64,000 nucleotides of DNA from Sphingobium sp. Leaf26 (GTDB taxonomy: Bacteria; Pseudomonadota; Alphaproteobacteria; Sphingomonadales; Sphingomonadaceae). The notes under the pieces were generated by a model, which saw only the letters and a program-made list of their open reading frames with translations, did not search any database and was not told the origin of the DNA. The translations under genes and the position numbers were made by a program. Of this stretch, positions 29,214 through 44,885 are shown piece after piece (positions within the stretch are counted from its first letter, which is position 1; each line of letters begins with the position of its first letter). The stretch covers positions 392,185-456,184 of the forward strand of contig NZ_LMKV01000012.1 of NCBI RefSeq assembly GCF_001421665.1, written 5' to 3'.

Positions 29214-30967
29214 AGGGCTTCCAATGTCATACGGAACAAGGTGTGTTCGTCAGTCGCCACATGGTCGAGCGTGCCGCCAAACTCGACCATGATGTCGCGC
29301 GCAATATGAAGGCCGAGGCCCAGGCCGCCCGCTTTGGTCGTGGCAAAGGGCATGAACAGTTGGTCGGCTACGGCGGGATCGATCCCCCCTCCACTGTCGC
29401 GGACGTCCAGCGCAATTTTGCCTTGCGATTGCCCCAGGTCGATCCTGACCCAGGGGTCGGGCCTGTCGCGCACCGCCTCCAGAGCATTGGTCAGCAGGTT
29501 CACCAATACCTGTTCCAACCGCACGCGCCCTGCCTTTACGATCAGGTGAGGACCGGGCGTTGGCAGCGACAGCGCCACGCCAGCCCGGCGGAACTGGTCA
29601 CCGACCAGCAGCCGCGCTCCATCCATCGCCTGTGCCAGCGATACAGGGCCGATCGTACCGACGCCGCGTCGCGCATAGCGCCGCAACTGTGCGGTGATGC
29701 TGCCGATCCGGTCCGTCATCGCCACGATTTCGCGCAGGTTGGTGGCGGCCTGTTCGGGCTGCGCGCGCACCAGAAAGGCGGCGGCATTTTCGGCGAAGGT
29801 GCGGATCGTCGCCACCGGCTGGTTGATTTCATGCGCCACCCCGGCGGAAATCGTGCCCAGCGTGCCCAGGCGATTGGCATGGGCCAGTTCCTCACGCGCC
29901 TGCCGATAACGTAGATCGGCCGCCGCCCGCGCGTCCATCTCCCGCGCCAGATCGCCGGTGCGCAGGGCGACTTCCCGTTCCAGAAGCGCGCGCGTGTCGA
30001 GGGACCGGCGTCGCCGCACAATGGCCCATGCCAGCCCGGCGAGCAGCAGCGACAGCAGGATGGCGAACAGAATGGCGGCGATCTCCGCCCGCTGTCGCGC
30101 CGCCTGCAACGCGCCATCCAGCGGTTCGATATGATAGAGTCGCCAGCCGGGGACCGGCGCGGCGAGCGTGGCAGTCATCGCCTGCGATCCATCGCCCATC
30201 CGGGTAAGTCCGTCGGACCCGATCGTCATGCCCAGCGGCGTCAGCGGTGCGCCGCCAAATTGCAACGCCTGCTTGATCTGTGCCTTGCGCGCCGGATCGA
30301 TCGGCCGCAGCGCGCGAAAGCGTAGCGCAGGGTCGCTGCTGATCAACAAGACGCCATTGGCGTCTGCGACGAAACTGAGCGCTGGCCGGTCCCGCCAGGT
30401 CCGTTCGATCGCATCGAACTCCACCTTGATCACGATCACGCCGATCGGACCGTCGCCATCCTCGATCCGACGAGACAGATAGAGGCCCGGACGGCGGCTG
30501 ACAGTGCCAAGCGCGAAATATTCGCCCCCGCCTTTGGCCCAGCCCAGGCGATAATAGGGGCGAAAGCTGTAATCCTGTCCCACGAAACTGCTGGGCAGGC
30601 GGGCGTTGGACGCGGCGATCGTGCGCCCGTGCCGATCGAGCGCGAAGATCGCGCCCGCGCCGGTCTTGGCCTTCAGCACCGCCAGCTTATCGTTCAGCGT
30701 CATGTCCGTGCGCCCCGAACGCAGCGCCACGCGCAGATCGGGATATTCGCTCAGGACCACAGGCAACAGACGGAACTTCTGTAATTCTGAGTCCAGCAGG
30801 CTCAGCACGGCGCGGGTCTGTTGCGTGGTTTCACCCCGTTCCGTCGCGATCGCCTGCGCGCGCAGGGCGACATGGTAGCGATCGGCGAACAGGGCGGAGG
30901 TCGCGACGATCCCCGCAATCGCCAGCAGCCACGAAACCCAGGCCGGGAGGGAAGCGAAACGTCTCAT
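29210..30967 (-). CDS. dctB: C4-dicarboxylate sensor histidine kinase DctB
   Basis: 585 residues from ATG 30967. Helix 1 (LPAWVSWLLAIAGIVATSALFA), a periplasmic double-Cache sensor region (about 35-280; DYSFRPYYRLGWAKGGGEYFALGTVSRRPGLYLSRRI is typical of DctB), helix 2 (IAAILFAILLSLLLAGLAWAIV), a coiled coil, then HisKA with H-box LGTISAGVAHEINQPVATIR and an HATPase (NLLTNALEAV, DSGGGI, GLGLHIA). It phosphorylates DctD in response to succinate-type acids. Divergent from dctA. Confidence 0.95.
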   Translation of the reverse strand: MRRFASLPAWVSWLLAIAGIVATSALFADRYHVALRAQAIATERGETTQQTRAVLSLLDSELQKFRLLPVVLSEYPDLRVALRSGRTDMTLNDKLAVLKAKTGAGAIFALDRHGRTIAASNARLPSSFVGQDYSFRPYYRLGWAKGGGEYFALGTVSRRPGLYLSRRIEDGDGPIGVIVIKVEFDAIERTWRDRPALSFVADANGVLLISSDPALRFRALRPIDPARKAQIKQALQFGGAPLTPLGMTIGSDGLTRMGDGSQAMTATLAAPVPGWRLYHIEPLDGALQAARQRAEIAAILFAILLSLLLAGLAWAIVRRRRSLDTRALLEREVALRTGDLAREMDARAAADLRYRQAREELAHANRLGTLGTISAGVAHEINQPVATIRTFAENAAAFLVRAQPEQAATNLREIVAMTDRIGSITAQLRRYARRGVGTIGPVSLAQAMDGARLLVGDQFRRAGVALSLPTPGPHLIVKAGRVRLEQVLVNLLTNALEAVRDRPDPWVRIDLGQSQGKIALDVRDSGGGIDPAVADQLFMPFATTKAGGLGLGLHIARDIMVEFGGTLDHVATDEHTLFRMTLEAL

Positions 30968-30970
30968 GGA

Positions 30971-31020
30971 TGTGTGGATTATCACACAATCGTCATCGAA
31001 GCGATGCGGTAATCCACATA
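30971..31020. promoter_or_regulatory. Tandem DctD-like binding sites upstream of dctA
   Basis: TGTGTG-GATTAT-CACACA (30971-30988) is a perfect 6-bp inverted repeat with 6-bp spacer. A second 18-bp site at 31003-31020 (GATGCGGTAATCCACATA) matches the same layout less well. Their centres are 32 bp apart, about three helical turns. Both resemble the rhizobial DctD site TGTGCGGAAATCCGCACA as I recall it. No sigma-54 promoter matching GG-N10-GC appears between here and dctA. Confidence 0.6.
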
Positions 31021-31180
31021 TGCGCGGCTGTCAGACGGAAGCTGGACTGCAATAATAATGTTCATTATCAATGCACTGATCGATATTTGCTCCAGCATTT
31101 GGCGCTGGCCACATTTCGCCGCACCATCAGCATGCCGCAAAGACTGAGCCAGCGGCGGCTATGGAGATGGAGCAAGCGCT

Positions 31181-32527
31181 ATGATCAACCAGACCTTCCC
31201 GGCCTCCGTGCCACCGCCCCGGCGCAAGGGATTTGCCTCCCAACTCTATGTGCAGGTGCTGGTCGCGATCATGCTCGGCGCGCTGCTCGGCCATTTCTGG
31301 CCCGTCTATGGCGAAGCTATGAAGCCGCTGGGCGACGGCTTCATCAAGCTGGTCAAGATGATCATCGCCCCGGTCATCTTCCTGACCATCGTCACCGGCA
31401 TTGCGGGCATGAAGGAATTGGGGTCGGTCGGCCGCGTGGCGGGCAAGGCGTTCGCCTATTTCCTGACCTTCTCCACCCTGGCGCTGGTCGTCGGCCTGAT
31501 CGTCGCCAATGTCGTGCAACCGGGTGCGGGCATGAACATCGATCCGGCCACGCTGGATGGCGGCGCGGTCGCCGATTATGCCGCCAAGGCGCATGAATCG
31601 ACGCTGACCGGCTTCCTGCTGGGTGTCATTCCTGCCACATTGGTCAGCGCCTTTACCGACGGCAACATCCTGCAAATCCTGCTGGTTGCGATCCTGTTCG
31701 GCATCGCCATCAGCATGGTCGGCGAACCCGCCGCGCCCGTCATCCGCTTCCTGGAGCGGTTGAGCCTCATCGTTTTCAAACTGGTGTCGATCCTGATGCG
31801 CGCGGCCCCCATCGGCGCGTTCGGGGCGATCGCCTTCACCATCGGCAAATATGGCGTCGGCAGCCTCGCCAATCTGGGCGCGCTGGTCGCGACCTTCTAC
31901 CTCACATCGTTGCTGTTCGTGGTCGTGGTGCTGGGCACCGTGGCGCGGCTCACCGGCTTTTCGATCTTCAAGCTGCTGCGGTACCTGAAGGCCGAACTGC
32001 TGCTGGTGCTGGGCACATCCTCGTCGGAAGCTGCGCTGCCAAACCTCATCGAGAAGATGGAGCGGGCGGGCTGCGAGAAATCGATCGTCGGGCTGGTCGT
32101 CCCTACCGGCTACAGCTTCAACCTGGACGGCACGAACATCTACATGACGCTGGCCGCGCTGTTCATCGCGCAGGCGACGGGTGTGGAATTGACGCTGGGA
32201 CAGGAACTGCTGCTGCTGGGCGTTGCGATGTTGTCGTCCAAGGGCGCGGCAGGCGTGACCGGCGCGGGCTTCATCACGCTGGCCGCGACGCTCTCGATCG
32301 TGCCGACGGTGCCGCTGGCAGGCATGGCGCTGATCCTGGGCGTGGACCGCTTCATGAGCGAATGCCGCAGCCTGACCAACTTCATCGGCAATGCCGTGGC
32401 CACCATCGTCGTTGCACGCTGGGAAGGCGGACTGGACCGCGAGAAGTTGAACGCCGCGCTCGACGGGCGCATCGCCGCGCCGGTCGTGGCTGCCGCGTCG
32501 CCGCAGGCCGCCGTCCACGCCGCCTGA
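31181..32527 (+). CDS. dctA: C4-dicarboxylate transporter DctA
   Basis: 448 residues, ATG at 31181 after GGAGATGGAGC. DAACS-family symporter: [23 protein letters not shown], the serine-rich hairpin [18 protein letters not shown], and substrate motifs [14 protein letters not shown] and [25 protein letters not shown]. The inner-membrane protein imports succinate, fumarate and malate with protons or sodium. Divergent from dctBD, which should control it. A porin gene follows. Confidence 0.96.
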
Positions 32528-32592: not shown

Positions 32593-34035
32593 ATGTTCAT
32601 GACTCGCTTGCTATGCGGCGCGTTCACGCTCGCCTGCGCGATGCCTGCCGCCGCCCAGACCGCAGCCCCGCAAACCTATCCCGCCGCTGCGCAAGGCGAT
32701 GGCGCGACAACAAAGGGCTATAATCTCTCCCGCTGGGCGGAGGATTGGACAGCCTATCGCGACAAGGCCAAGCGCGACGATATCCTGGACCGCCTGAAAT
32801 ATCTGCCGCTGGACGATGACGGCGACATCTATCTGACGCTGAGCGGCGAGGCGCGGTTGCGGATGAACCTGACCAGCAATCCGCAACTGATCGAAGGGCC
32901 GGAGCAGCGACAGGACATCCTGCGCCTGGTCGGCGGCGCCGACCTCCATATCGGCGATCATCTGCGCTTCTATGGCGAGATCGCCCATGGGCGATTGTCG
33001 GGTAAAAATGTCGGCACGCCATCGGGATCGCTGCGTAATAATTTCGTCCGCCAGCAATATTTTGCTGAAGCCAAAGGCGGGATCGGCGACGTCGATCTGG
33101 GCATCCGCTATGGTCGGCAGGAATTTACCGATGGTCCCAACCTGCTGATATCCCAGCGCGACAACAACACCATACGCTTCGTCCTGAACGGCGCGCGGGT
33201 CTGGGCGCGCACGCCGACCATGCGCGCGACGTTGTTCGATTTCGAAACGACGGATCTGGGCAATGGCGGGCTGGGCGACGATGTGCCGGACAAGAACCGG
33301 CGGTTCAGCGGCGTGTCGGCGGGTTTCGTGCTGCCGACCCACTGGCTGGGCGGATCGAACCTCTATTTCGACCCCTTCTTCTGGCGGCGGCGCAATCGCG
33401 TGGGGACGTGGGGCGGTGTCGTGTCGCCCGCCGTGCGCTATTATGCCGGGGCGCGGCTGTGGGGCGATGTCGGTCCCGTGGCGCTCGACTGGACGCTGGT
33501 CCACCAATATGGCCAGTTCAACGATCGCCCGATCCGTGCCTGGCAGGCCTTTGCCGCGCAGACGGTCCGGCTCGGCGCGGACAAAAGTGCGCCGCGCGTC
33601 GGCGTCCATGTCGATTATGGCAGCGGCGGAGGCGGCTATGACAAGGGCACGCTACGGAACGCCTACGCGCCGTTCGGCAACAATATCTATTTCAGCTATG
33701 GCCTGTTCCTGACCGCCACCAACCTGATCGCGGTCGCACCGAATGTCTCGTTCCAGCCAGCGAAGGGCGTGCGCGCCAGCCTGGAATATCAGTTCAGTTG
33801 GCGCGACGATCAACGCGATGCCGTCTATCGCGCCAACTACACGCCCTATGTCGGCACGGAGCGGGTTGCGGGCAAAGCGGTGGCGCAACTCGCACGCGCA
33901 CAGATCGTCTATTCCATCTCGCCACGAGTCACCCTGACCATGCGGGCCGAATATCTTCAGGCGCAGGCGGTGTTGAAGGCAGCCGGCTATCGGAATTCGG
34001 CCTTTCTTGCGACTTGGCTGAGTTTTCGATTCTGA
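32593..34035 (+). CDS. Outer-membrane porin, alginate-export family
   Basis: 480 residues. Signal peptide MFMTRLLCGAFTLACAMPAAAQ; an in-frame ATG at 32599 is possible. The mature protein resembles the alginate-export (AlgE-like) barrel family: GEARLRMNLTSNPQLIEG, VDLGIRYGRQEFTDGPNLL and a long beta-strand pattern ending in aromatic F (ATWLSFRF), as outer-membrane barrels do. 65 bp downstream of dctA on the same strand, it probably lets dicarboxylates or similar anions cross the outer membrane; real alginate export is unlikely. Confidence 0.82.
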   Translation: MFMTRLLCGAFTLACAMPAAAQTAAPQTYPAAAQGDGATTKGYNLSRWAEDWTAYRDKAKRDDILDRLKYLPLDDDGDIYLTLSGEARLRMNLTSNPQLIEGPEQRQDILRLVGGADLHIGDHLRFYGEIAHGRLSGKNVGTPSGSLRNNFVRQQYFAEAKGGIGDVDLGIRYGRQEFTDGPNLLISQRDNNTIRFVLNGARVWARTPTMRATLFDFETTDLGNGGLGDDVPDKNRRFSGVSAGFVLPTHWLGGSNLYFDPFFWRRRNRVGTWGGVVSPAVRYYAGARLWGDVGPVALDWTLVHQYGQFNDRPIRAWQAFAAQTVRLGADKSAPRVGVHVDYGSGGGGYDKGTLRNAYAPFGNNIYFSYGLFLTATNLIAVAPNVSFQPAKGVRASLEYQFSWRDDQRDAVYRANYTPYVGTERVAGKAVAQLARAQIVYSISPRVTLTMRAEYLQAQAVLKAAGYRNSAFLATWLSFRF

Positions 34036-34068: not shown

Positions 34069-34376
34069 CGCCACAGCCTTGCCAATCAGACGGAAAACCT
34101 CACCAGAATCGCCTTTGCCGATGTCCGTTATCGGGCGGGATCGGTCGGCCTGCGCGATATACTGGTCGCCCGGACAGCGTTGCGGGATGCGCGGGCGGCG
34201 CAGGCGTCCTCGCGCCAGCCCCTTTCATCGCTGCGGTTGGATGTGTTCAAGGCGCTCGGCGGCGGCTGGGCAGGGCAGCCCGCCGGCTTGATGGCGATGC
34301 AGTCCGGCAGGGGCATGTTCCTGCCGGACGGTCAGCCGGTCTTGCCATATGTTTCGACCAGCGTGACGAAAGAATA
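34069..34376 (+). pseudogene. C-terminal fragment of a NodT/TolC-family outer-membrane factor
   Basis: In the frame of 34081 the translation reads ANQTENLTRIAFADVRYRAGSVGLRDILVARTALRDA, then LSSLRLDVFKALGGGWAGQP. The RYRAG-x-x-x-L-x-D-x-L and ALxKALGGGW strings are characteristic of the last helices of NodT-type efflux channels. No start or upstream part is present, and the frame runs on past the true end into the TetR gene. It is a decayed remnant of about 75 residues between the porin and TetR genes. Confidence 0.65.
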
Positions 34377-35021
34377 GAGGGCGATCTCCTCCAGCTTGGG
34401 CATCAGCGGCTCGAACGGCTTCTCGAAGCCGGCAAAGGGCGTCATGCCCTCGATCGACGCGGAGATGAACAGGGCGATCGCCTTGCGATCCCCGCCCGGC
34501 AGGTCCGGGCGCATTTCGCCGACGATCTCGCTCAGCGGCGCCCGCGCACGGTCATACAGATCCTGCACCCGGCCCAGCACAAAGGCATCATGATTGGACA
34601 GTGCCCATAGTTCCGGGAACAGGTGCGTCGTCTTCTTGCTGCGAATATCCTCCAGGATGAAGCGACAGATATGTTGCAATCGCTCGGCCGGCGTTCCGGG
34701 CAGATGGATGATCTGGTCGAACTCCACCTCATAGCTGCGGATCACCGCTTCCAGCAGTTCGCGGACCAGATCCTCCCGCGTGCGATAATGATAGGTCAGA
34801 TTGCCGAACTTGATGCCGCAATCGACCGCGACTCGGCGCATGCTCATCGCCCGATACCCTTCCTCGATCAGGATATGGAGCGCGGTGTGCAGGATCATCT
34901 CGCGCGTCTCATGCCCTTTGGAATAACCGCCATCGCGGTCCGCCATGATCAGGACCGCGGGTTGGGCCTCCACCTCATCCATCTGATTTTCCATCCTTTC
35001 CCGTTCCAGGAAATGGATCAT
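34332..35021 (-). CDS. TetR-family regulator of the amine operon
   Basis: 229 residues (ATG 35021; later in-frame ATGs at residues 10, 14 and 26). Helix-turn-helix at about 38-85: HETREMILHTALHILIEEGYRAMSMRRVAVDCGIKFGNLTYHYRTREDLVRELL. The C-terminal helices SEIVGEMRPDLPGGDRKAIALFISASIEGMTPF resemble TetR_C domains of fatty-acid or BetI-like members. Divergent from the amine dehydrogenase operon whose -35 box is in a palindrome; it most likely represses that operon. Confidence 0.87.
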   Translation of the reverse strand: MIHFLERERMENQMDEVEAQPAVLIMADRDGGYSKGHETREMILHTALHILIEEGYRAMSMRRVAVDCGIKFGNLTYHYRTREDLVRELLEAVIRSYEVEFDQIIHLPGTPAERLQHICRFILEDIRSKKTTHLFPELWALSNHDAFVLGRVQDLYDRARAPLSEIVGEMRPDLPGGDRKAIALFISASIEGMTPFAGFEKPFEPLMPKLEEIALYSFVTLVETYGKTG

Positions 35022-35132: not shown

Positions 35133-36302
35133 ATGCGCTCCATTATTGCGAGCTTGCTGCTTGGCGCGGCAATGCCCATCCCGGCGTTCGCCGACACGCA
35201 GAAATTTCCGGCCCCTCTGCCGGAAGAAACGCTGCCGAGCGTCCAGCAATTGCCCGACAAATGGCCGAAAAGCTGGGTGTTGATCCATGATCTCAACTTC
35301 GCCTCGATCCTCGACGGGAAGCTGGCGCTGGTCGACACGCATTCTGTCGACCGGCCGCTCAAGGGGCTGGTGCGCGCGGCCCAGTTCGCCAATGAACTGA
35401 TCGCACCGGACCGGGGCGAGATTTACACGGCAGAAACATTCTACAGCCGCCTGACCCGTGGCGCGCGTACCGACGCGATAACCATATGGGATATGAAAAC
35501 GCTCCAGCCCAAGGGGGAGATCATCCTGCCCGACGGCAAGCGGCAACTGTCCGTCACCTATCCCAATGTGTTCCAGTTCACCAATGGCGGCAAATGGGCG
35601 CTGGTCGCCAATTTCACCCCGGCCCAGTCGGTCACGGTGGTCGATCTGGAAGGGCGCAAGGTGCTGAGCGAGATCGACCTCCCCGGCTGCACCCAAATCT
35701 ATCCCAGCGGCCAGCGCGGCTTCAGCAGCCTGTGCGCCGATGGGTCGGTCTTCAGCGTGACGCTGGATGACAGGGGGCAGGCCGCATCCTCCGGCAGCGT
35801 CGCCGGGGTGCAGGATATCGACCGGCAACCGCTGTTCGGCACGCCCGCCATGGTCGGCCGCACCGCCTGGTTCGTCAGCTATCATGGCATGGTGCAGGGC
35901 ATCGACCTATCCGGCCCGGTCGCCAGACCGCTCCCCGCTGCCTTCAGCGTCGGAAAAGCGGACGGCGGCACGCCCCAATGGCGCCCCGGCGGCTGGCAGG
36001 TCATCGCGTCCGACGCGAAAGGGCTGCTCTATGTGCTGATGAGCGCCAACGGCAAGGAAGGCAGCCACAAAGACGGCGGCACCGAAGTCTGGGTCGTCGA
36101 TCCGGTCAGGAAAGCCCGCCTCTCCCGTATCGCGCTCAAGGGGCAGGGGCTGGCCATCGCCGTCACCCGCGAGGATGCGCCGCAACTGATCGTGGCGCGG
36201 GCGGATGGCGTGGTCGATGTGCATGATGCCGCGACCGGTGCCTTCGTGCGCACGCTGGGTGCGACGGTCGCCGCCAACCCCATCGTCATCACGGTGCCCT
36301 GA
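35133..36302 (+). CDS. mauB: Amine dehydrogenase heavy (large) subunit
   Basis: 389 residues from ATG 35133 after AGGGAGAATGAC. Signal peptide MRSIIASLLLGAAMPIPAFA. The mature protein is a seven-bladed beta-propeller of the methylamine/aromatic amine dehydrogenase heavy-chain family: SWVLIHDLNFASILDGKLALVD, DAITIWDMKTLQPKGEIILPDG, GFSSLCADGSVFSVTLDDRG and GTEVWVVDPVRKARLSRIALKG. It pairs with the TTQ light subunit in the periplasm. Its stop overlaps the mauE start (TGATG). Subtype (methylamine, aromatic amine or other) cannot be fixed from sequence alone. Confidence 0.93.
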   Translation: MRSIIASLLLGAAMPIPAFADTQKFPAPLPEETLPSVQQLPDKWPKSWVLIHDLNFASILDGKLALVDTHSVDRPLKGLVRAAQFANELIAPDRGEIYTAETFYSRLTRGARTDAITIWDMKTLQPKGEIILPDGKRQLSVTYPNVFQFTNGGKWALVANFTPAQSVTVVDLEGRKVLSEIDLPGCTQIYPSGQRGFSSLCADGSVFSVTLDDRGQAASSGSVAGVQDIDRQPLFGTPAMVGRTAWFVSYHGMVQGIDLSGPVARPLPAAFSVGKADGGTPQWRPGGWQVIASDAKGLLYVLMSANGKEGSHKDGGTEVWVVDPVRKARLSRIALKGQGLAIAVTREDAPQLIVARADGVVDVHDAATGAFVRTLGATVAANPIVITVP

Positions 36303-36790
36303 TGGCCGCGCTCCCCCTGTTCCTCGCCCTGCTGCTCGGCGGCTCGGCCCTGCACAAGGCGCTCGATCGCCGGCGGCTGGGCGGCGCTGCGGAGCGGCTG
36401 GCCGGAACGCCCCTCTCGACCGGCCCGTTGCTGCTGATCGCGGCGGGTGTTGCGGAAGGGACTGCCGCCCTCTGCCTGCTGCTGGCCCCGTTGCGACTGG
36501 TCGGCGCGCTGGTCGCGCTGCTCCTCTGGGCGCTCTATGCCATGCTGCTGCTGCGTCGTCGCGGCCAGTCGCTCGATTGCGGCTGCGATCTCGTTGCGCG
36601 GGAACGGCCGGTTGGCGCAGGCCAGATCGCCCGCCCGGCCCTGCTCGCCGGTCTTGCCGCGCTGACGGCCCTGCTACCGCCGACGCCCTTCACTCTCGAC
36701 GCGCCTTTCGCCGCCGCCGGCTTTCTGGCGCTCTGGTTGGGCGCGGCCGAAATCCTTGTCATCCCCCGGCCTGTTTGGAGGAACAACTGA
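36302..36790 (+). CDS. mauE: MauE: amine dehydrogenase maturation membrane protein
   Basis: 162 residues, MauE/DoxX-like. Four or five membrane helices (LPLFLALLLGGSALHKALDRRRLGG, LLIAAGVAEGTAALCLLLAPLRLVGALVALLLWALYAMLLL) and the conserved cysteine motif LDCGCD, as in MauE, which with MauD is needed to form the six disulfides of the light subunit. Start ATG 36302 overlaps the mauB TGA; its stop overlaps the mauD ATG. Confidence 0.93.
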   Translation: MAALPLFLALLLGGSALHKALDRRRLGGAAERLAGTPLSTGPLLLIAAGVAEGTAALCLLLAPLRLVGALVALLLWALYAMLLLRRRGQSLDCGCDLVARERPVGAGQIARPALLAGLAALTALLPPTPFTLDAPFAAAGFLALWLGAAEILVIPRPVWRNN

Positions 36791-37377
36791 TGCTGACATC
36801 CCAGATATTGCTGTGGGCGGCGGTGATCGCCCAGGCTCTGCTCATCGCCGCGCTCGCCCGGCAGGTCGGCATATTGCATGAGCGGATCGCTCCCGCCGGC
36901 GCGCTGACCCTGCATCAGGGCGTGAAGATCGGTGAGGTGGCGACGCCCATGGACCTGCTCACCATCGACGACGCAAAATTGCGCGTCGGCGGCAAGCGGG
37001 ACGGGCGCAGCCAGTTGCTCTTCTTCGCCTCGCCCGATTGTTCGATGTGCAAGTCCTTGTTGCCGGTGCTGCGCTCCGCCGCCCGTGCGGAGGCGGACTG
37101 GATCGACGTGGTGATCGCGGGCGACGGCACAAAGCCCGCCTATCGTGCCATGGCATCCGATCATGGGCTGGATGGCCTGCCGATCATCCTGTCCGAAGCC
37201 CTGGGCCGCGCCTTCGGTGTCGCGAAGCTGCCCTATGCCGTGCTGCTGGACGAAAGCGGCAGGATCGCCTCGCTCGGCCTCATCAACAGCCGCGAGCATC
37301 TGGAAAGCCTGTTCGAGGCGAAGGAGCGCGGCGTGGCCTCGCTCCAGGATTATCTCGCCCGCCGGAAGGAGGCCTGA
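36790..37377 (+). CDS. mauD: MauD: thioredoxin-like maturation protein
   Basis: 195 residues. Signal anchor (QILLWAAVIAQALLIAALA), then a thioredoxin fold with the active-site C-x-x-C in FFASPDCSMCKSLLP and LPYAVLLDESGRIASLGLINSREHLESLFEA. MauD is a periplasmic disulfide oxidoreductase or isomerase for the cysteine-rich light subunit. TGATG overlap with mauE; mauA follows three bases later. Confidence 0.93.
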   Translation: MLTSQILLWAAVIAQALLIAALARQVGILHERIAPAGALTLHQGVKIGEVATPMDLLTIDDAKLRVGGKRDGRSQLLFFASPDCSMCKSLLPVLRSAARAEADWIDVVIAGDGTKPAYRAMASDHGLDGLPIILSEALGRAFGVAKLPYAVLLDESGRIASLGLINSREHLESLFEAKERGVASLQDYLARRKEA

Positions 37378-37380
37378 GCC

Positions 37381-37926
37381 ATGGCCGGTTTCGATACATT
37401 CACGGAGCGGATGGCGCGCGGCGTTGCGCGCGGCACCTCCCGCCGGTCGCTGCTGGCGTGGCTGGGCGCGGGCATGACTGGGACGGCCATGCTGCCCGCC
37501 TTGCCGGTGGCGCGCGCCGCCACCCATCCCGATGCCGCCCGGCCGGAAATGAAGTCCGGCACACCACAAGACCCCGGCAATCCGGCCAGTTGCGACTATT
37601 GGCGCTATTGCGCGATCGACGGCTTTCTCTGTTCCTGCTGCGGCGGCACGGTCAATAGCTGCCCGCCGGGTACGGAAATGTCACCCATCACCTGGATCGG
37701 CACTTGCACCAATCCGGCGGATGGCCGCGCCTATATCATCAGCTATAATGACTGTTGCGGCGTGTCCTCCTGCGGCCAGTGCCTGTGCAACCGCAATGAG
37801 GGCGACCGGCCGCAGGTCCGGCCCCAATCGAACAACGACTATAACTGGTGTCTGGGCACGGAAAGCAGCATCTACAACTGCTCGGTCGCCGCGATCGTCG
37901 GCACCGCGCTGGACCAGCCGCAATGA
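37381..37926 (+). CDS. mauA: Amine dehydrogenase light (small) TTQ subunit
   Basis: 181 residues. Twin-arginine signal SRRSLLAWLGAGMTG, cleaved after ARA, so it is exported folded. The mature part contains 14 cysteines in the light-chain pattern (CDYWRYC, FLCSCCGG, DCCGVSSCGQCLC). The two tryptophans that form tryptophan tryptophylquinone in known enzymes are present: Trp105 (SPITWIGTC) and Trp156 (YNWCLG). It carries catalysis, RCH2NH3+ to aldehyde plus ammonia. Its stop overlaps the following cytochrome start (ATGA). Confidence 0.95.
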   Translation: MAGFDTFTERMARGVARGTSRRSLLAWLGAGMTGTAMLPALPVARAATHPDAARPEMKSGTPQDPGNPASCDYWRYCAIDGFLCSCCGGTVNSCPPGTEMSPITWIGTCTNPADGRAYIISYNDCCGVSSCGQCLCNRNEGDRPQVRPQSNNDYNWCLGTESSIYNCSVAAIVGTALDQPQ

Positions 37927-38372
37927 AGGCGATCTTCGCTCTCATCTTGCTGACCGGCGCTGGCGTGGCGCAGGCCGCGCCCGACGGCGCGACCATCTAT
38001 AATCGCTGCGCCGCCTGCCATACCCGCACCGGCGCCGGCGTACCGGGCGCCTATCCACCGCTCGGCGCCGATTTCCGTGCGCTGGCAGCCAGGCCGGGCG
38101 GCCGCCGCTATCTGGCGCTGGCCGTCATCAAGGGGCTGAACGGCCCGATCAGCGTGGAAGGCAAGCCCTATCGCGGCATGATGCCGGCGCAGGGCGGGCT
38201 GGACGATATGGGTGTGGCGGCCGTGCTCAACCATGTCGGTGGCACGATCGCCAGGGCCGGGCCGGCCTTCAAGCCCTTCACCGATCAGGAAATCGCCGGC
38301 TATCGCGCCGGGGCCAAGCCGCTGGGTTCCGCCGATGTCGCGAAACTCCATGAAGGGGCGGGCGGCAAATGA
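37923..38372 (+). CDS. Periplasmic monoheme cytochrome c
   Basis: 149 residues. Signal peptide MKAIFALILLTGAGVAQA; one heme site CAACH near residue 30; later methionines in YRGMMPAQGGLDD are candidate distal ligands. It starts within the mauA stop, so it is part of the operon and is the likely electron acceptor from the amine dehydrogenase, in place of amicyanin or cytochrome c551i. It has a single CxxCH, so it is not the diheme MauG. Confidence 0.9.
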   Translation: MKAIFALILLTGAGVAQAAPDGATIYNRCAACHTRTGAGVPGAYPPLGADFRALAARPGGRRYLALAVIKGLNGPISVEGKPYRGMMPAQGGLDDMGVAAVLNHVGGTIARAGPAFKPFTDQEIAGYRAGAKPLGSADVAKLHEGAGGK

Positions 38373-38842
38373 AACTGGTCCCGCTCGCCTTGGTAGCCCT
38401 TGTCGCATTGTCCGCGACACTGGCAGCCAGGGCCAGCGAGCGGGCGATGCCGGGCGTGATGAACCCACGTCAGGCGCATCAGGACTATATCCTGAAATGC
38501 CAGGGCTGCCATCGGCCGGACGGCAGCGGCGACGATCGGTCCAACCCGCCTATGCGCGGCGTCGTCGCCCGTTTCCTGACCGTGCCGGGCGGGCGGGCCT
38601 TTATCGGCCGGGTACCGGGCGTCGCCACTGTCGATCTGGACGACGAACGCCTCGCCGACCTGGTCAACTGGACGCTGCACAGTTTCGACGCGGAGCATCT
38701 GCCACGCGATTTTCAGCCCTATTCGGCGGCGGAAATCGCGGCCCTGCGGCGCAATCCCATCCGTCTGGACCGCGTCGCCACAAGAGCGCGGCTGGTGGAG
38801 GGCTTTTCTTCACAAGAGGCAAAACAAGCACAACAGGATTGA
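38369..38842 (+). CDS. Second periplasmic monoheme cytochrome c
   Basis: 157 residues. Signal peptide MKLVPLALVALVALSATLAARA; heme site CQGCH in YILKCQGCHRPDGSGD; Met in NPPMRGVVARFL. The C-terminal half (PRDFQPYSAAEIAALRRNPI) is helical and of unclear role. ATG overlaps the previous TGA. Possibly carries electrons onward to the terminal oxidase, or takes part in cofactor maturation. One heme site only. Confidence 0.88.
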   Translation: MKLVPLALVALVALSATLAARASERAMPGVMNPRQAHQDYILKCQGCHRPDGSGDDRSNPPMRGVVARFLTVPGGRAFIGRVPGVATVDLDDERLADLVNWTLHSFDAEHLPRDFQPYSAAEIAALRRNPIRLDRVATRARLVEGFSSQEAKQAQQD

Positions 38843-38854
38843 AGGGGAAGAGAC

Positions 38855-41056
38855 ATGGGGAAAATCTCCACGAAAATGCTGGCGCTGAGTGGCACGATCT
38901 GGACCGGGCTGGCGCTGGCCCAGCCGGTCGCCGCGCAGGAAGCGGCACAGCAGGCATCACAGGACGAAATCGTCGTCACCGCCGCCAAGCGATCCGAAAA
39001 TGTGCAATCCGTTCCCATTTCCGTCTCCGCCATCGGCGGGGACATGCTGGCCAAGTCCCGCATCAGCAACGTCGACAGTCTGGTGACGAAGGTCGCCAAT
39101 CTCCAACTCACCTCGATCGTGGGCGACAACACGCCGATCTTCGCGCTGCGCGGCGTGTCGATGTCCGATTACAGCCTCAACCAGTCCAGCCCGGTCGCGA
39201 CCTATTATGACGAAGTCTATAAGGGCAATTTCGCCTTTCTGGGCGTCGCCATGTATGATCTGGAGCGGGTCGAGGTGCTGCGCGGGCCACAGGGGACGCT
39301 GTATGGCAAGAACACCACCGGCGGCGCGGTCAACATCATCAGCCGCGAAGCCAAGCTGGGAGAGACCAGCGGCTATCTGAACGCGGGCTATGGCAATTAT
39401 AATCGTTATGAGGCGAGCGGTGCGGTCAATGTCCCGCTGGGCGAGAAGGCGGCACTGCGCGTGGCGGGCACCTTCGCCCGCGCGGACGGCTGGTTCAAAA
39501 ATGTCGAGCCGGGCATGCCGGACCTTGCCAGCACCCGCGAATATGCGTTTCGCGGTACGCTGAAGGCGCAGCCGGTCGAGGGCCTGACCTTCGTGCTGCG
39601 CGCCTCCACCAGTTTCCAGAACCCGCAAAATTACGGCATCTACGCCCAGCCGGAAGCCGACCATCGCGCCGGCCTGTCGCGCCGGGAGATCGCATCGGAC
39701 GTCGCCACCCGCCGCCGCGCCCGCACCACGTCGGTGGCGTTGACCACCAATATCGACCTGTCCGACGCGATCGCGCTGACCAGCATCACCTCCTATGACA
39801 AGGGGACGCTCTTCTTCCGGGAAGATACGGACGGCACGGCGACGAAGCTGCTGGAAATCCCCTATTATGACAAGGCGAACCAGTTCGCACAGGATCTGCG
39901 CCTGACCAGCGACACGGGCGGCCCGTTCGACTTCATCCTCGGCGCCTATTTCAACCGGGAAAAGGTCTTCAACCGCACCGCCTTCGAAATCGCGACCGAC
40001 GTGGATGTGAATGAGGATGGCGCGATCGACGCGCAGGATTGCGCCGCTGGCCTGCCGCTGGCCTGCAAGGTCCAGAACCAGTTCAGTCAGGTGAAGAAGA
40101 GCGTCGCCATCTATTCCGACCTCAAATATAAGCTGGGCGGGGCGGTGACGCTGCGCGGTGGCCTGCGCTACACCCACGACACAGGCCGCCAGACCGGCTT
40201 CATCTCGCAGGCGCTGGGCGTGGACGACAGCGTCGTCGCCACCCTGATCCCGCTATCGAACCTGCGCTTCAACAAGAATAATTTTTCCGGCAAGATCGGC
40301 CTCGACTATAAATTGGCCGACGGCAATCTCCTCTATGCCAGCCTCAGCCGCGGCTATCGCGCGCCCAGCTTCAATGCCCAGGCCTTCTTCGATCCGTCCG
40401 AACTGTCGGTGGCGAAGGCGGAGCAGGTGACATCCTATGAAGTCGGCGCGAAGACCCAGTTCTGGGACCGCCGCATCACGCTGAACGTCGCGGGCTTCTA
40501 TTATGATTACAAGAACCAGCAGTTCATCAACGTCGATCCTGCCAGCGCCGCCCAGACGCTGCTCAACATCCCCAAATCGCGCATCTATGGCGGGGAAGCG
40601 GAACTGACCGTCCGCGCCGCCGACACGCTGACCGTCCGTGCGGGCATGGGAATATTGTCGGCCAGGATAAGGCAGGGCACCGTCAGCGGCGTCGACGTAT
40701 CCGACAATCGCCTGTCCAACGCGCCCAGCATGACGCTCAATGGCGGCATCGACTGGACGGTGGCGCAGGGCAGTTTCGGCAGCCTCTCCTTCCACCCCGA
40801 AGTCGCCTATCAGTCGAGCCAGTATTTCGAGGTGGTCAACATCCCCCGCCTGAAGCAGAAGGGCTATGCGCTGCTGAGCGGCCATATCGACTGGGAAAGC
40901 GCGGACGAGCGGTTCAACGCCTCGCTCTGGGCCAGGAATCTGACCAAGCAATTCTACTTCACGTCGCGGGTCGATCTGCTCGCCGGCTTTGGCTTCGACT
41001 ATAATCATATCGGCAATCCGCGCACCTATGGCGTGAGCGTCGGCGCGAAATTTTAA
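38855..41056 (+). CDS. TonB-dependent receptor of the amine operon
   Basis: 733 residues. Signal peptide ending VAAQE, TonB box DEIVVTAAKR, plug domain (VQSVPISVSAI ... IFALRGVSMSDYS ... RVEVLRGPQGTLYGKNTTGGAVNI), then a 22-strand barrel ending GVSVGAKF. Twelve bases after the cytochrome gene and eight before the aldehyde dehydrogenase, so within the operon. It probably takes up the amine or a carrier compound through the outer membrane; TonB receptors are not part of classical mau or aau clusters. Confidence 0.93.
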   Translation: MGKISTKMLALSGTIWTGLALAQPVAAQEAAQQASQDEIVVTAAKRSENVQSVPISVSAIGGDMLAKSRISNVDSLVTKVANLQLTSIVGDNTPIFALRGVSMSDYSLNQSSPVATYYDEVYKGNFAFLGVAMYDLERVEVLRGPQGTLYGKNTTGGAVNIISREAKLGETSGYLNAGYGNYNRYEASGAVNVPLGEKAALRVAGTFARADGWFKNVEPGMPDLASTREYAFRGTLKAQPVEGLTFVLRASTSFQNPQNYGIYAQPEADHRAGLSRREIASDVATRRRARTTSVALTTNIDLSDAIALTSITSYDKGTLFFREDTDGTATKLLEIPYYDKANQFAQDLRLTSDTGGPFDFILGAYFNREKVFNRTAFEIATDVDVNEDGAIDAQDCAAGLPLACKVQNQFSQVKKSVAIYSDLKYKLGGAVTLRGGLRYTHDTGRQTGFISQALGVDDSVVATLIPLSNLRFNKNNFSGKIGLDYKLADGNLLYASLSRGYRAPSFNAQAFFDPSELSVAKAEQVTSYEVGAKTQFWDRRITLNVAGFYYDYKNQQFINVDPASAAQTLLNIPKSRIYGGEAELTVRAADTLTVRAGMGILSARIRQGTVSGVDVSDNRLSNAPSMTLNGGIDWTVAQGSFGSLSFHPEVAYQSSQYFEVVNIPRLKQKGYALLSGHIDWESADERFNASLWARNLTKQFYFTSRVDLLAGFGFDYNHIGNPRTYGVSVGAKF

Positions 41057-41063
41057 GGAGAGG

Positions 41064-42470
41064 ATGATGGCTGACTATAAGCTGCTGATCGGCGGCGAGC
41101 TGGTCGATGGCGACCTTGAAATGGAGGTCGTCAATCCCGCGACCGGCGCGCCCTTCGTCACCGTGGCGCGCGCCTCGCCCGCACAGGGGGATCAGGCGAT
41201 CGCCGCTGCCAGGGCGGGCCAACCGGGCTGGGCGGCGGTGCCCTATGCGGATCGACAGGCCAGGCTGCTGGCATTGGCCGACGCCATCGCCGCCAATGCC
41301 CATGACCTTGCCCGGCTGCTGACGCTGGAACAGGGCAAGCCACTGCCTGAAGCGCAGGGGGAAGTCGCCTGGACCGAGGGGTTCCTGCGCCATTACGCCA
41401 CGCTGGAGTTGCCCGACCGCATCATTCAGGACGATGACGCCGGCTATATCGCGGTGAAGCACCGGCCGCTGGGCGTCGTCGTCGGCATCATCGCCTGGAA
41501 CTTTCCGCTGCTGGTCGCGTGCTGGAAGATCGGACCGGCGGTGCTGGCGGGCAACGCCATCGTGCTGAAACCCGCCCCCACCACGCCGGTCACGGCACTG
41601 GCGCTAGGTGCCCTTTGCCGCGATATCTTCCCGGCGGGCGTCGTCAACATCATCACCGACGCCAACGACCTTGGCCCGCAACTGACCGCCCATCCCGATG
41701 TCGCCAAAATCGGCTTCACCGGATCGACCGCGACCGGCAAGCGCATTGCTGCGGGCAGCGCCGACGGGCTGAAGCGCGTCACGCTGGAACTGGGTGGCAA
41801 TGATCCGGCGATCGTGCTGGACGATGTCGATGTGCGCGAAACGGCCAGGGCGATCTTCGGCAATGCCTTCCTCAATGCCGGGCAGGTCTGCCTGGCGGTG
41901 AAGCGCGCCTATGTCCATGCCGACATTTACGACGCCATGTGCGCCGAACTGGCGGCGCTGGCGCAGGCCGCGATCGTGGGCGACGGACTTGAGCAGGGGA
42001 CGCAGATCGGCCCGATCCAGAACGCCGCCCAATATGAAAAGGTGAAGGGCTTCCTCGACGCGGCGCGGGCGGATGGCACGATCGTCGCGGGCGGACACGC
42101 CATGGAACGCGCCGGCTATTTCATCGCGCCCACCATCGTGCGCGACGTGACCGACGGCATGCGAATAGTGGACGAGGAACAGTTCGGCCCGATCCTGCCG
42201 CTCATCAAATTCGACGATGTGGAGGATGTGATCGCGCGCGCCAATGCGTCCGACTATGGGCTGGGCGGGTCGGTCTGGTCCGCCGATGTCGAGCGCGCTG
42301 CCGCTATCGCCGCGCGGATCGAAAGCGGGCAGGTCTGGGTCAACCAGCATATCGCCATCGGTCCGCACATTCCCATGGCCGGCTTCAAGCAAAGCGGCCT
42401 GGGCGTCGAGCAGGCCGAGGAGGGACTTGCCGAATATACCCAGTTGCAAGTCATCAACATCAAACGATGA
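41064..42470 (+). CDS. NAD(P)-dependent aldehyde dehydrogenase
   Basis: 468 residues behind AAGGAGAGG (an ATG at 41067 is also possible). ALDH motifs: IAWNFPLLVACWKIGPAVLAGNAIVLKP, IGFTGSTATGKRI, catalytic Glu in LELGGNDPAIV and catalytic Cys in NAGQVCLAVKR, EEQFGPILP. Within the operon it should oxidise the aldehyde released by the amine dehydrogenase to the acid, in the cytoplasm. Stop overlaps the next ATG (ATGA). Confidence 0.94.
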   Translation: MMADYKLLIGGELVDGDLEMEVVNPATGAPFVTVARASPAQGDQAIAAARAGQPGWAAVPYADRQARLLALADAIAANAHDLARLLTLEQGKPLPEAQGEVAWTEGFLRHYATLELPDRIIQDDDAGYIAVKHRPLGVVVGIIAWNFPLLVACWKIGPAVLAGNAIVLKPAPTTPVTALALGALCRDIFPAGVVNIITDANDLGPQLTAHPDVAKIGFTGSTATGKRIAAGSADGLKRVTLELGGNDPAIVLDDVDVRETARAIFGNAFLNAGQVCLAVKRAYVHADIYDAMCAELAALAQAAIVGDGLEQGTQIGPIQNAAQYEKVKGFLDAARADGTIVAGGHAMERAGYFIAPTIVRDVTDGMRIVDEEQFGPILPLIKFDDVEDVIARANASDYGLGGSVWSADVERAAAIAARIESGQVWVNQHIAIGPHIPMAGFKQSGLGVEQAEEGLAEYTQLQVINIKR

Positions 42471-44098
42471 GCGCATTGTCGATCGCAAGGAGCGCCACCG
42501 ACGTCCCGCTGCTGGAAACCACCATCGGTCAGGCGCTGTTGCAGATCGTGGCTGACCATGGCGACGGACTGGCGCTGGTGTCGCGGCACCAGGCCATCCG
42601 CTGGACCTGGGCGCAGTTGCTGGCGCAGGTGGACGCCGTCGCCACTGGCCTGCTGGGCCATGGCGTGGGGAAGGGCGACCGGGTCGGCATCTGGGCGCCC
42701 AATTGCGCGGAATGGACGGTGATCCAGTTCGCCACGGCGCGGATCGGGGCCATCCTCGTCAACATCAACCCGGCCTATCGCACCAGCGAGGTCGACTATG
42801 CCCTGAACAAGGTCGGATGCAGCCTGCTGGTCACGGCGCCGCGCTTCAAGAGCAGCGACTATGTCGCCATGCTGCGGGAAATCGGGCCGGACCGGCTGCC
42901 CGCGCTGCGCCATGTGATCGTGCTGGGTGATGAACGGCATGACGGCTGGCTGAACTGGACCGATCTGCTGGTGGAAGCCGATCCCGACCGCCTTACGGCG
43001 ATCGAGGCGACGCTCGACCGCAATGACGCGATCAATATCCAGTTTACCAGCGGCACCACCGGCCAGCCCAAGGGCGCGACGCTGACCCACCGCAACGTGC
43101 TCAACAACGGCTATTTCTCGGCCCGCACGATGCGCCTGACCGCCGCCGACCGGCTCTGCATCCCGGTCCCGCTCTACCATTGTTTCGGCATGGTGCTGGG
43201 CAATATGGCGGCGCTGACCAGCGGCGCGGCGATGGTCTATCCGGGCGAGGCCTATGATCCCCGGCTGGTGCTGGACACGGTGCAGGCGGAAGGCTGCACC
43301 ATGCTGCACGGCGTGCCGACCATGTTCATCACCATATTGAACCAGCCGGACCTCGCCGCCTTCGACATATCGACGCTGCGTACCGGCATCATGGCGGGGT
43401 CGCCCTGTCCCGAAACGGTGATGCGGCAGGTGATGGAGCGGCTGAACCTGCGCCAGATCACCATCGGCTATGGCATGACCGAAACCAGCCCGCTCACCAC
43501 CCAGACCGCGACCGACGATCCGCTGGAGGAGCGGGTGACGACGGTCGGCCGCGTCCATCCCCATGCGGAGGCGAAGGTCGTCGGTCCCGATGGCGCGATC
43601 CTGCCCATCGGCCAGCAGGGCGAATATTGTTCGCGCGGCTATGCGGTGATGCTGGGCTACTGGGACGATCCCGACCGCACGGCGGACGCGATCGACGCCG
43701 ATGGCTGGATGCACTCGGGCGATCTGGCGACGATGGACGCGCGCGGCTATGTCCGCATCACCGGCCGGATCAAGGACATGATCATTCGCGGCGGGGAGAA
43801 TATCTATCCGCGTGAGATCGAGGACTATCTGCTCCGTCATCCGGCCATAGCCGACGCGCAGGTGTTCGGAGTCGCCGACGACAAGTTCGGCGAAGCGGTC
43901 TGCACCTGGATCATCCCCAGGGCGGGCGCGATCCTGTCGGAACAGGATGTGCTGGACCATTGCCGGGGGAGGATCTCCCATTTCAAAATCCCCCGCTATG
44001 TGCGTATCGTCGACCGGTTCGAAATGACGGTGACGGGAAAGGCGCAGAAGTTCGAGATGCGGGCGATCATGGAACGGGAACTGGGCCTTGGGGTCTGA
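42467..44098 (+). CDS. AMP-dependent acyl-CoA synthetase
   Basis: 543 residues. ANL-superfamily motifs: FTSGTTGQPKGATLTHRN (P-loop), YGMTETSPLTT, GWMHSGDLATMDARGYVRITGRIKDMIIRGGENIYPREIE and the C-terminal Lys in TVTGKAQKFEM. Similar to medium-chain fatty-acyl-CoA ligases. It should activate the carboxylic acid made by the preceding aldehyde dehydrogenase, implying a substrate longer than methylamine. Eleven bases overlap with the next gene. Confidence 0.94.
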   Translation: MSALSIARSATDVPLLETTIGQALLQIVADHGDGLALVSRHQAIRWTWAQLLAQVDAVATGLLGHGVGKGDRVGIWAPNCAEWTVIQFATARIGAILVNINPAYRTSEVDYALNKVGCSLLVTAPRFKSSDYVAMLREIGPDRLPALRHVIVLGDERHDGWLNWTDLLVEADPDRLTAIEATLDRNDAINIQFTSGTTGQPKGATLTHRNVLNNGYFSARTMRLTAADRLCIPVPLYHCFGMVLGNMAALTSGAAMVYPGEAYDPRLVLDTVQAEGCTMLHGVPTMFITILNQPDLAAFDISTLRTGIMAGSPCPETVMRQVMERLNLRQITIGYGMTETSPLTTQTATDDPLEERVTTVGRVHPHAEAKVVGPDGAILPIGQQGEYCSRGYAVMLGYWDDPDRTADAIDADGWMHSGDLATMDARGYVRITGRIKDMIIRGGENIYPREIEDYLLRHPAIADAQVFGVADDKFGEAVCTWIIPRAGAILSEQDVLDHCRGRISHFKIPRYVRIVDRFEMTVTGKAQKFEMRAIMERELGLGV

Positions 44099-44885
44099 AG
44101 AGGGCGACGCGCAGGCCTATTTCCTGCGGATGGACGATGGCCGCTTCATGCCCACGGCGCATGTCGGTGGCGCCTGGAATGTCGCGGAACAGCATGTCGC
44201 GCCGGCGATCGGTCTGCTGCTCCATGCGGTAGAGGCGGATCATGCCGCACGCCGCTCCGACTGTTTGCAGGTCGCACGCCTGTCCTACGACATATGGGGC
44301 GTCATTCCGATGGACGCGGTGGAGATCGCGGTCACCGTGCTGCGCCCCGGCCGGACCATCGAACTGGTCGAGGCACGCCTCAGCCATGGCGGCCGCACCG
44401 CCATCGTCGTGCGCGCCTGGCTGACCCAGGCCTATGACAGCAATGCTCTTGCGATGGACAACTTCCCCCCGCTTCCGCCGCCTGAAGCCATGCCTGCCGG
44501 CGATCCGTCCGCCCTGTGGGACGGCGGCTTCATCGCCAGCGTGCAGGTGCGGCGGCTGGGCGAGGGGCAGGGGCGGGCCCGCTGCTGGGTTCGCTCGCCC
44601 TTCGCTTTGCTGGAGGATGAGTCCGTGTCGCCGACCGCACGGATGATGGGGCTGGCCGACATTGCCAACGGGCTTGCCCCGCTGGCCTCGCCAAAGGATG
44701 CTGCCTTCCCCAATCTCGACCTGACGGCCCATCTTTTCCGGCAACCTGTAGGCGACTGGCTGGGCTTCGACGTGTCCGTATCCGGCGGTACGACCGGCCT
44801 CGGCATCACCCACAGCATCCTGCACGACGGCGACGGCGCTTTCGCCACCCTGATGCAGTCGCTGACGATCCGCCCCAGACCCTGA
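44088..44885 (+). CDS. Acyl-CoA thioesterase-like double hotdog protein
   Basis: 265 residues, TTG start at 44088 overlapping the synthetase end; a shorter start at ATG 44130 would cut the first strand. Thioesterase-like family: AYFLRMDDGRFMPTAHVGGAWNVAEQHVAPAIGLLLHAVEAD, RLSYDIWGVIPMDAVEIAVTVLRPGRTIELVEARLSHGGRTA, then a second hotdog (SDRTARMM-like SPTARMMGLADIANGL ... FDVSVSGGTTGLGITHSILHD). It could hydrolyse stalled acyl-CoA or accept an acyl-CoA for another step. Last gene of the operon. Confidence 0.8.
   Translation: MGSEEGDAQAYFLRMDDGRFMPTAHVGGAWNVAEQHVAPAIGLLLHAVEADHAARRSDCLQVARLSYDIWGVIPMDAVEIAVTVLRPGRTIELVEARLSHGGRTAIVVRAWLTQAYDSNALAMDNFPPLPPPEAMPAGDPSALWDGGFIASVQVRRLGEGQGRARCWVRSPFALLEDESVSPTARMMGLADIANGLAPLASPKDAAFPNLDLTAHLFRQPVGDWLGFDVSVSGGTTGLGITHSILHDGDGAFATLMQSLTIRPRP

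Follow-up and report, generated by a model that had tools for sequence, protein, structure and literature searches.

The window, the whole stretch of 64,000 nucleotides from Sphingobium sp. Leaf26 that was analysed (contig NZ_LMKV01000012.1), contains at 35133-38842 a tightly packed TTQ amine dehydrogenase operon in which genes in the order B-E-D-A are followed by two monoheme cytochromes, here called cyt1 and cyt2. The operon and its surroundings are as follows:

32593..34035, + strand: outer-membrane porin-like protein of the alginate-export family (PF13372, 1.2e-28), perhaps for substrate uptake; linked to the operon by position only
34332..35021, - strand: divergent TetR-family regulator (PF00440, PF13977), from its position the probable operon regulator
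35133..36302, + strand: TTQ amine dehydrogenase heavy chain, aauB/mauB-like (PF06433, 1.5e-43), ATG at 35133
36302..36790, + strand: MauE-like membrane protein (PF07291, 3.2e-11)
36790..37377, + strand: MauD-like thioredoxin-fold protein, presumably for light-chain disulfides (TIGR02661, 176.4 bits, just below the cut-off of 188.6)
37381..37926, + strand: TTQ light chain (PF02975, 4.3e-49)
37923..38372, + strand: cyt1, monoheme c552-like cytochrome with the Met ligand in GMMPAQ (PF00034, above cut-off), likely an electron carrier
38369..38842, + strand: cyt2, monoheme c552-fold cytochrome (CQGCH ... RVPGVA ... NW) without the Met loop; proposed, from co-occurrence, as TTQ maturation factor
38855..41056, + strand: TonB-dependent receptor (PF00593, PF07715), 12 bp after cyt2 and probably co-transcribed
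41064..42470, + strand: aldehyde dehydrogenase (PF00171, 9e-150), by inferred role the likely oxidant of the aldehyde from the amine dehydrogenase
42467..44098, + strand: acyl-CoA ligase (PF00501, 5.3e-96), by inferred role the likely activator of the resulting acid
44088..44885, + strand: acyl-CoA thioesterase-like protein (4HBT_3; PF20789, PF13622)

The light-chain, cyt1 and cyt2 genes overlap at their ends. A preliminary description had read the operon as B-E-D-A without F, with two monoheme cytochromes after the light chain and neither mauF nor mauG. Successive matches to PF06433, PF07291, TIGR02661 and PF02975 confirm the order; each cytochrome carries one CXXCH, and neither mauF nor mauG was found in the operon, whether in the gene list or by Pfam and NCBIfam profile searches. 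MauD is known from work on methylamine dehydrogenase (MADH) for its role in light-chain disulfides. A sodium:dicarboxylate symporter gene lies at 27888-32527, before the porin gene and the operon, together with divergently oriented genes for a sensor kinase and a sigma-54 response regulator (DctA/DctBD-like).

The light chain has 181 aa and 14 Cys. Aligned with the light chains of aromatic amine dehydrogenase (AADH) and MADH it shares 12 Cys and an invariant Trp105, Trp156 and Asp124, and these three residues are also invariant in all 106 cyt2-associated rows of the light-chain family alignment. By alignment the two tryptophans, correctly described earlier as intact, are predicted to form TTQ, with Asp124 as the predicted catalytic base. 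Taken with the PF02975 and PF06433 matches, the Trp pair, the Asp and the Cys set place the two chains, as judged from sequence, among the TTQ amine dehydrogenases of the MADH/AADH superfamily. An additional pair, Cys87/Cys131, is present in 100 of the 106 cyt2-type rows; in the rows of P. aeruginosa, Chimaeribacter, Haematobacter and Paracoccus SMMA_5, Ser/Val stand in its place, and its distribution shows no match to the mauG split.

Similarity to known enzymes is divided. The light chain shares 56% identity with the A. faecalis AADH light chain, over its aligned part, and 44% with that of a P. versutus MADH; its best phmmer match is nevertheless P. versutus MADH (160.3 vs 152.0 bits), in an alignment that is longer and takes in the leader. 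For the heavy chain the nearest solved structures are AADH (150.3 bits; best MADH 138.7). Both chains miss the classical mau equivalog cut-offs (heavy chain 151.5 of 454.45 for TIGR02658, light chain 174.9 of 196.85 for TIGR02659), and the operon, being without mauF and mauG, would not count as a classical methylamine dehydrogenase (mau) operon.

In layout it resembles the aau (aromatic amine dehydrogenase) cluster of Alcaligenes faecalis, which, as reportedly described by Chistoserdov in 2001, contains a monoheme cytochrome gene and neither mauF nor mauG: in both, B-E-D-A stands without mauF/mauG and is followed by one or more monoheme cytochrome genes. Active AADH has reportedly been produced from aauBEDA together with orf-2 in P. 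denitrificans, which itself possesses mauG. On a Pseudomonas plasmid, loci that carry the annotation aauBEDA likewise continue with cyt1- and cyt2-type genes, a layout the same as that of the window. The likeness to the aromatic amine dehydrogenase cluster that had been noted before thus holds for the arrangement of genes; it does not extend to the enzyme. In a light-chain tree (121 rows, 108 columns; the window light chain is row L110) the window enzyme falls outside the annotated AADH clade, in a separate large clade, and a heavy-chain tree (59 rows, 383 columns), from which the window row was left out, agrees through the close relatives L007, L011 and L030. The window operon also has downstream genes of its own (TonB receptor, aldehyde dehydrogenase, CoA ligase). 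The mau clusters of Paracoccus and Methylobacterium encode a homologous heavy chain, MauE, MauD and light chain in the same order as the window, but differ in having mauF upstream and mauJ-mauG downstream, with cyt2 absent; in the window the reverse is seen, cyt2 being present without any of these. The five enzymes with mauF/mauG form one group in both trees (SH-aLRT 99 for the light chain and 100 for the heavy chain), and the enzymes closest to that group are of the cyt2 type, including a second TTQ enzyme of the Leaf26 genome. The root of the light-chain tree rests on a very long Thermomicrobium branch.

That second enzyme is encoded on the same contig as the window (locus L004, G000:C12:764001-783999) by an operon of heavy chain, MauE, MauD and light chain followed by a single cyt2. 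No mauF or mauG was found near it in the 20 kb examined; a cyt1-like gene lies ∼4 kb away on the opposite strand.

In MADH, MauG is the maturing enzyme and oxidises Trp residues, according to PMC6405878 and PMC7876137; the latter also states that the first Trp hydroxyl is already present when MauG acts. The preliminary description had allowed that MauG might be encoded elsewhere. A genome-wide search of Leaf26 (genome 99.99% complete) with PF03150 (CCP_MauG), a profile that recovers all four mauG genes of control operons (P. denitrificans, Methylobacterium, Indioceanicola and the gammaproteobacterium G404), gave one match, on contig C5. This protein is MbnH (TIGR04039, 508.7 bits against a cut-off of 362.85); it adjoins its own partner MbnP (TIGR04052, 278.2, cut-off 140), the two forming a pair of copper-binding protein and diheme modifier (L001 404-1312 and 1033-2505). 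With MbnH beside MbnP as the sole match, the idea of a MauG elsewhere in the genome was rejected. The cut-off of the NCBIfam MauG model, TIGR03791, was dropped as a criterion: the biochemically proven MauG of P. denitrificans (L088 10880-12040), a founding member, is missed by it, scoring 96.8 bits against 443.85. Finding none of 289 alphaproteobacterial genomes over that cut-off therefore says little, and we rely instead on absence by PF03150 and by E-value.

The same description had proposed that one or both cytochromes take over cofactor maturation. The Met ligand of cyt1 (GMMPAQ) is present in 51 of 52 aligned rows, the remaining row having a gap, and cyt1 occurs in 59 of 99 mauG-less loci and is missing from 40. 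It is a normal Met-ligated cytochrome, likely an electron carrier, and since it is both Met-ligated and so often missing, cyt2 alone stays a candidate replacement for MauG.

cyt2 is a protein of 157 aa with a single CXXCH and no PF03150 match, and so falls outside the two-heme CCP_MauG family. Neither Pfam nor NCBIfam has a dedicated family for it: the window cyt2 has no match at E 1e-3, and 39 of 43 members match PF00034 at E <= 0.01. Its AlphaFold model (mean pLDDT 95.3, pTM 0.89) is nearest in fold to Thermus thermophilus cytochrome c552 (1c52; Foldseek E 1.4e-3; VIA-align Z 11.9, rmsd 2.7 over 110 residues, 29% identity), differing from it, as judged against cyt1, in the absence of the Met-ligand loop. 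In the profile alignment of cyt2 with cyt1 (probability 99.4%) the Met stretch of cyt1 lies opposite 18 gap columns, and what remains of the lost loop in 104 distinct cyt2 sequences is a stump of V (102), P (104) and G (103). The V count was taken from the alignment, whose column holds V 102, A 1 and L 1. Counting the residue at the Met position by regular expression gave V 97, A 5 and L 2, and was discarded because such a search may pick up a VPG that stands earlier. Apart from the CXXCH, no Met or His is conserved at 70% or more across the 104 sequences. cyt2 thus has the class I cytochrome c fold and the CXXCH motif, and no conserved distal Met or His ligand. Loss of the Met-bearing loop predicts an open, five-coordinate, peroxidase-like heme; according to PMC10041640, Met80-depleted cytochrome c gains peroxidase activity. 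With MauG, cyt2 would have in common its role, as proposed here, and an open site (in cyt2 a predicted one) at a c-type heme; it differs in having one heme, 157 aa, a c552 fold and no PF03150 match. Four two-heme ORFs (L072, L082, L083, L084) were excluded from the cyt2 alignment. In the Cellvibrionaceae/Pseudoteredinibacter loci a small cytochrome with two CXXCH motifs follows cyt2 (L072 6648-7232; L082 9080-9640; L083 8994-9554; L084 9080-9640).

To our knowledge there is no answer to how TTQ forms in enzymes with mauG-less clusters. The distribution of cyt2 bears on this question. A cyt2 profile built from mauA-linked loci was used to search 289 alphaproteobacterial and 321 gammaproteobacterial genomes whole. 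Among the former, PF02975 is over cut-off in 10, from 7 families and 8 genera, and cyt2 is found in exactly those 10; a weak light-chain match (G204, below cut-off and with four stops) was left out. Among the latter, PF02975 is found in 12 and strong cyt2 (103.9-146.3 bits) in 10, all inside the 12; a match in G622, a genome without a light chain, was weak (42.6 bits across 45 positions) and was left out of the cyt2 count. Fisher values are 1.0e-18 and 2.4e-17, shared ancestry being ignored. The two of these 12 without cyt2 carry mauF: in G404 the operon reads mauF-B-E-D-A-J and includes a mauG-like gene, and G646 has mauF-B-E-D-A on a contig that ends in mauA. Operons of the cyt2 type seem commoner than those of the mauG type (10 vs 0 genomes in the alphaproteobacterial sample, 10 vs 2 in the gammaproteobacterial).

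The loci themselves give the same picture. A light-chain scan of genome contigs returned at least 577 relatives; among the best 80 together with L004, a cyt2 relative is present in 77 of the 81 loci and cyt1 in 51, and none of the 81 has an ORF of more than 250 aa with two CXXCH motifs. A panel of 14 plasmid loci of named organisms, examined from 31 matches, comprises three with mauF/mauG and no cyt2, ten without mauF/mauG and all with cyt2, and that of Thermomicrobium with neither. In Novosphingobium aromaticivorans DSM 12444 the cyt2 gene (122.9 bits) is SARO_RS19985, annotated as a hypothetical protein and placed immediately behind the light-chain gene. Altogether 105 loci (ten regions were chosen by us, and some loci share one genome) divide into 92 with cyt2 and no mauF/mauG, five with mauF and no cyt2 (mauG in view in four), eight with neither and none with both. 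Two plasmids are unusual. That of Thermomicrobium roseum (L094 2950-9309) encodes several light-chain-like Cys-rich proteins with conserved Trp near a 596-aa MauE-domain protein, with no heavy-chain match within 18 kb; that of Sphaerotilus sulfidivorans (L090 8875-10046) has a light chain and both cytochromes, no heavy-chain match in 18 kb, and looks partial or decayed.

Seven proteobacterial loci have no cyt2 nearby. Six of these consist of a heavy-light pair alone, no mauD being visible, and the seventh is cut by the end of its contig. Every one of the six genomes concerned encodes cyt2 at another place. Two genomes with several light chains (three in G454, two in G279) have one cyt2 each. 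These observations suggest that a single cyt2 may act in trans for more than one enzyme. cyt2 also stands beside heavy-light pairs without visible mauD in 4 of 99 loci, and so is not strictly tied to the accessory genes.

We consider there to be an even chance that cyt2 takes the place of MauG as oxidant of the TTQ precursor, with cyt1 carrying electrons. The operon product would then be a periplasmic TTQ-dependent primary-amine dehydrogenase of the aau/mau family, its cofactor matured without MauG. MauD and MauE would help to fold the disulfide-rich light chain; the open heme of cyt2 would react with peroxide (or with O2 and electrons) and draw electrons from the two tryptophans, a step modelled on the high-spin heme of MauG in methylamine dehydrogenase. 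The finished enzyme would pass electrons to cyt1 or another carrier, and its aldehyde product would go to the aldehyde dehydrogenase and then the CoA ligase. We infer the open heme, the peroxide reaction and the maturation role together from several lines of evidence: the co-occurrence of cyt2 and light chain in whole alpha- and gammaproteobacterial genomes; the exclusivity of cyt2 and mauF/mauG, in that no locus of the 105 has both; the finding that the cyt2-less proteobacterial loci all come from genomes with cyt2 elsewhere; the lost Met loop, with no conserved Met or His, set beside the peroxidase activity of the Met80-depleted protein; and a shared core, heavy chain, MauD, light chain and cyt2 being common to all of 21 cyt2-bearing loci that we chose (MauE in up to 19). 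To these is added the absence of PF03150 from 27 of 46 genomes with related loci, although the profile finds the four control mauG genes; the 46 derive from 47 of the 80 loci, L012 being left out, and 14 of the 27 are labelled isolates, not MAGs, completeness not being given.

Other observations weigh against a maturation role. A MauG-superfamily protein occurs in many cyt2 genomes: at E 1e-3 the MauG model has no match in five of the 10 alphaproteobacterial ones (G055, G189, G279, G284, G317) and a match in the other five, none above the TIGR03791 cut-off, while in gammaproteobacteria it matches at E <= 1e-3 in 11 of the 12 light-chain genomes and 9 of the 10 cyt2 genomes (G340 has none), the cyt2 genomes here too being without a match above that cut-off. 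This goes against the simple story, yet is consistent with the many roles of the superfamily. The exclusivity may moreover reflect a single evolutionary event, since the mauF/mauG enzymes form one clade, and cyt2 also occurs near the few mauD-less pairs. Finally, MauG uses two hemes, and the sufficiency of one is putative. The chemistry of MauG is often explained through a heme pair that shares two oxidising equivalents; were a single open heme to do the job, the pair would not be essential. The sequences single out one gene, cyt2, and for some strains the search revealed no diheme relative of MauG.

Some of the same facts could be read otherwise. cyt2 might be solely the electron carrier of the working dehydrogenase, replacing amicyanin, with TTQ made by something else, a reading that we find unlikely though it is the chief rival. 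Amicyanin, an electron carrier, can follow mauA in MADH operons and does so in two of those examined. In the mauG-less operons cyt2 occupies that position; a cytochrome there could be a carrier, the c552 fold suits one, and 31 mauD-bearing loci have cyt2 and no cyt1. Against this, a heme without a Met ligand would be an unusual carrier, the normal cytochrome cyt1 is also present in most of the loci, and amicyanin is found in just two of the five mauF loci, so that carrier identity alone cannot explain the mauF/mauG split. Formation of TTQ by the precursor itself, or with MauD/MauE and oxygen or peroxide, leaving cyt2 some secondary function (removing peroxide, for example, or protecting the precursor), we judge to be quite improbable: the hydroxyl that precedes MauG in MADH (PMC7876137) does make part of the chemistry independent of MauG, but self-formation leaves unexplained both the absence of cyt2 from mauF/mauG operons and its presence in 24 of 24 mauF-less proteobacterial genomes searched whole for it (10 + 10 + 4). 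There is little to recommend a split MauG, with the open heme in cyt2 and a second, electron-storing heme in cyt1; the two genes overlap in the window and often co-occur, but a partner missing from 40 loci is not generally required. Maturation by a MauG-type diheme enzyme elsewhere, here the single MbnH, a MauG relative (159 bits on TIGR03791), is highly improbable, as that protein scores over the MbnH cut-off beside its own partner and PF03150 is without a match in more than half of the genomes with related loci.

Returning to cyt2 as the maturing oxidant, a wider proposal is possible, if somewhat doubtful: that the one-heme, Met-less cyt2 is the ordinary TTQ synthase of the family, acting in trans on several light chains per cell, and that two-heme MauG, together with MauF, replaced it later and solely in the methylamine dehydrogenase clade, whose closest relatives, including the second TTQ enzyme of Leaf26, still use cyt2. 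The direction, cyt2 first and MauG later, is not established, as the tree is rooted by one very long branch. Literature searches, with subscription papers largely outside them, returned nothing that links a cytochrome without the Met ligand to TTQ enzymes or describes how cyt2 and mauF/mauG exclude each other, and nothing useful on maturation in aromatic amine dehydrogenase. The mauG-less layout itself is already known from the aau cluster.

The neighbours of the second TTQ operon of Leaf26 are histidine-degradation genes (an aromatic amino acid lyase/HutH-like gene and urocanase) and an MFS-like gene; the enzyme is perhaps a histamine dehydrogenase.
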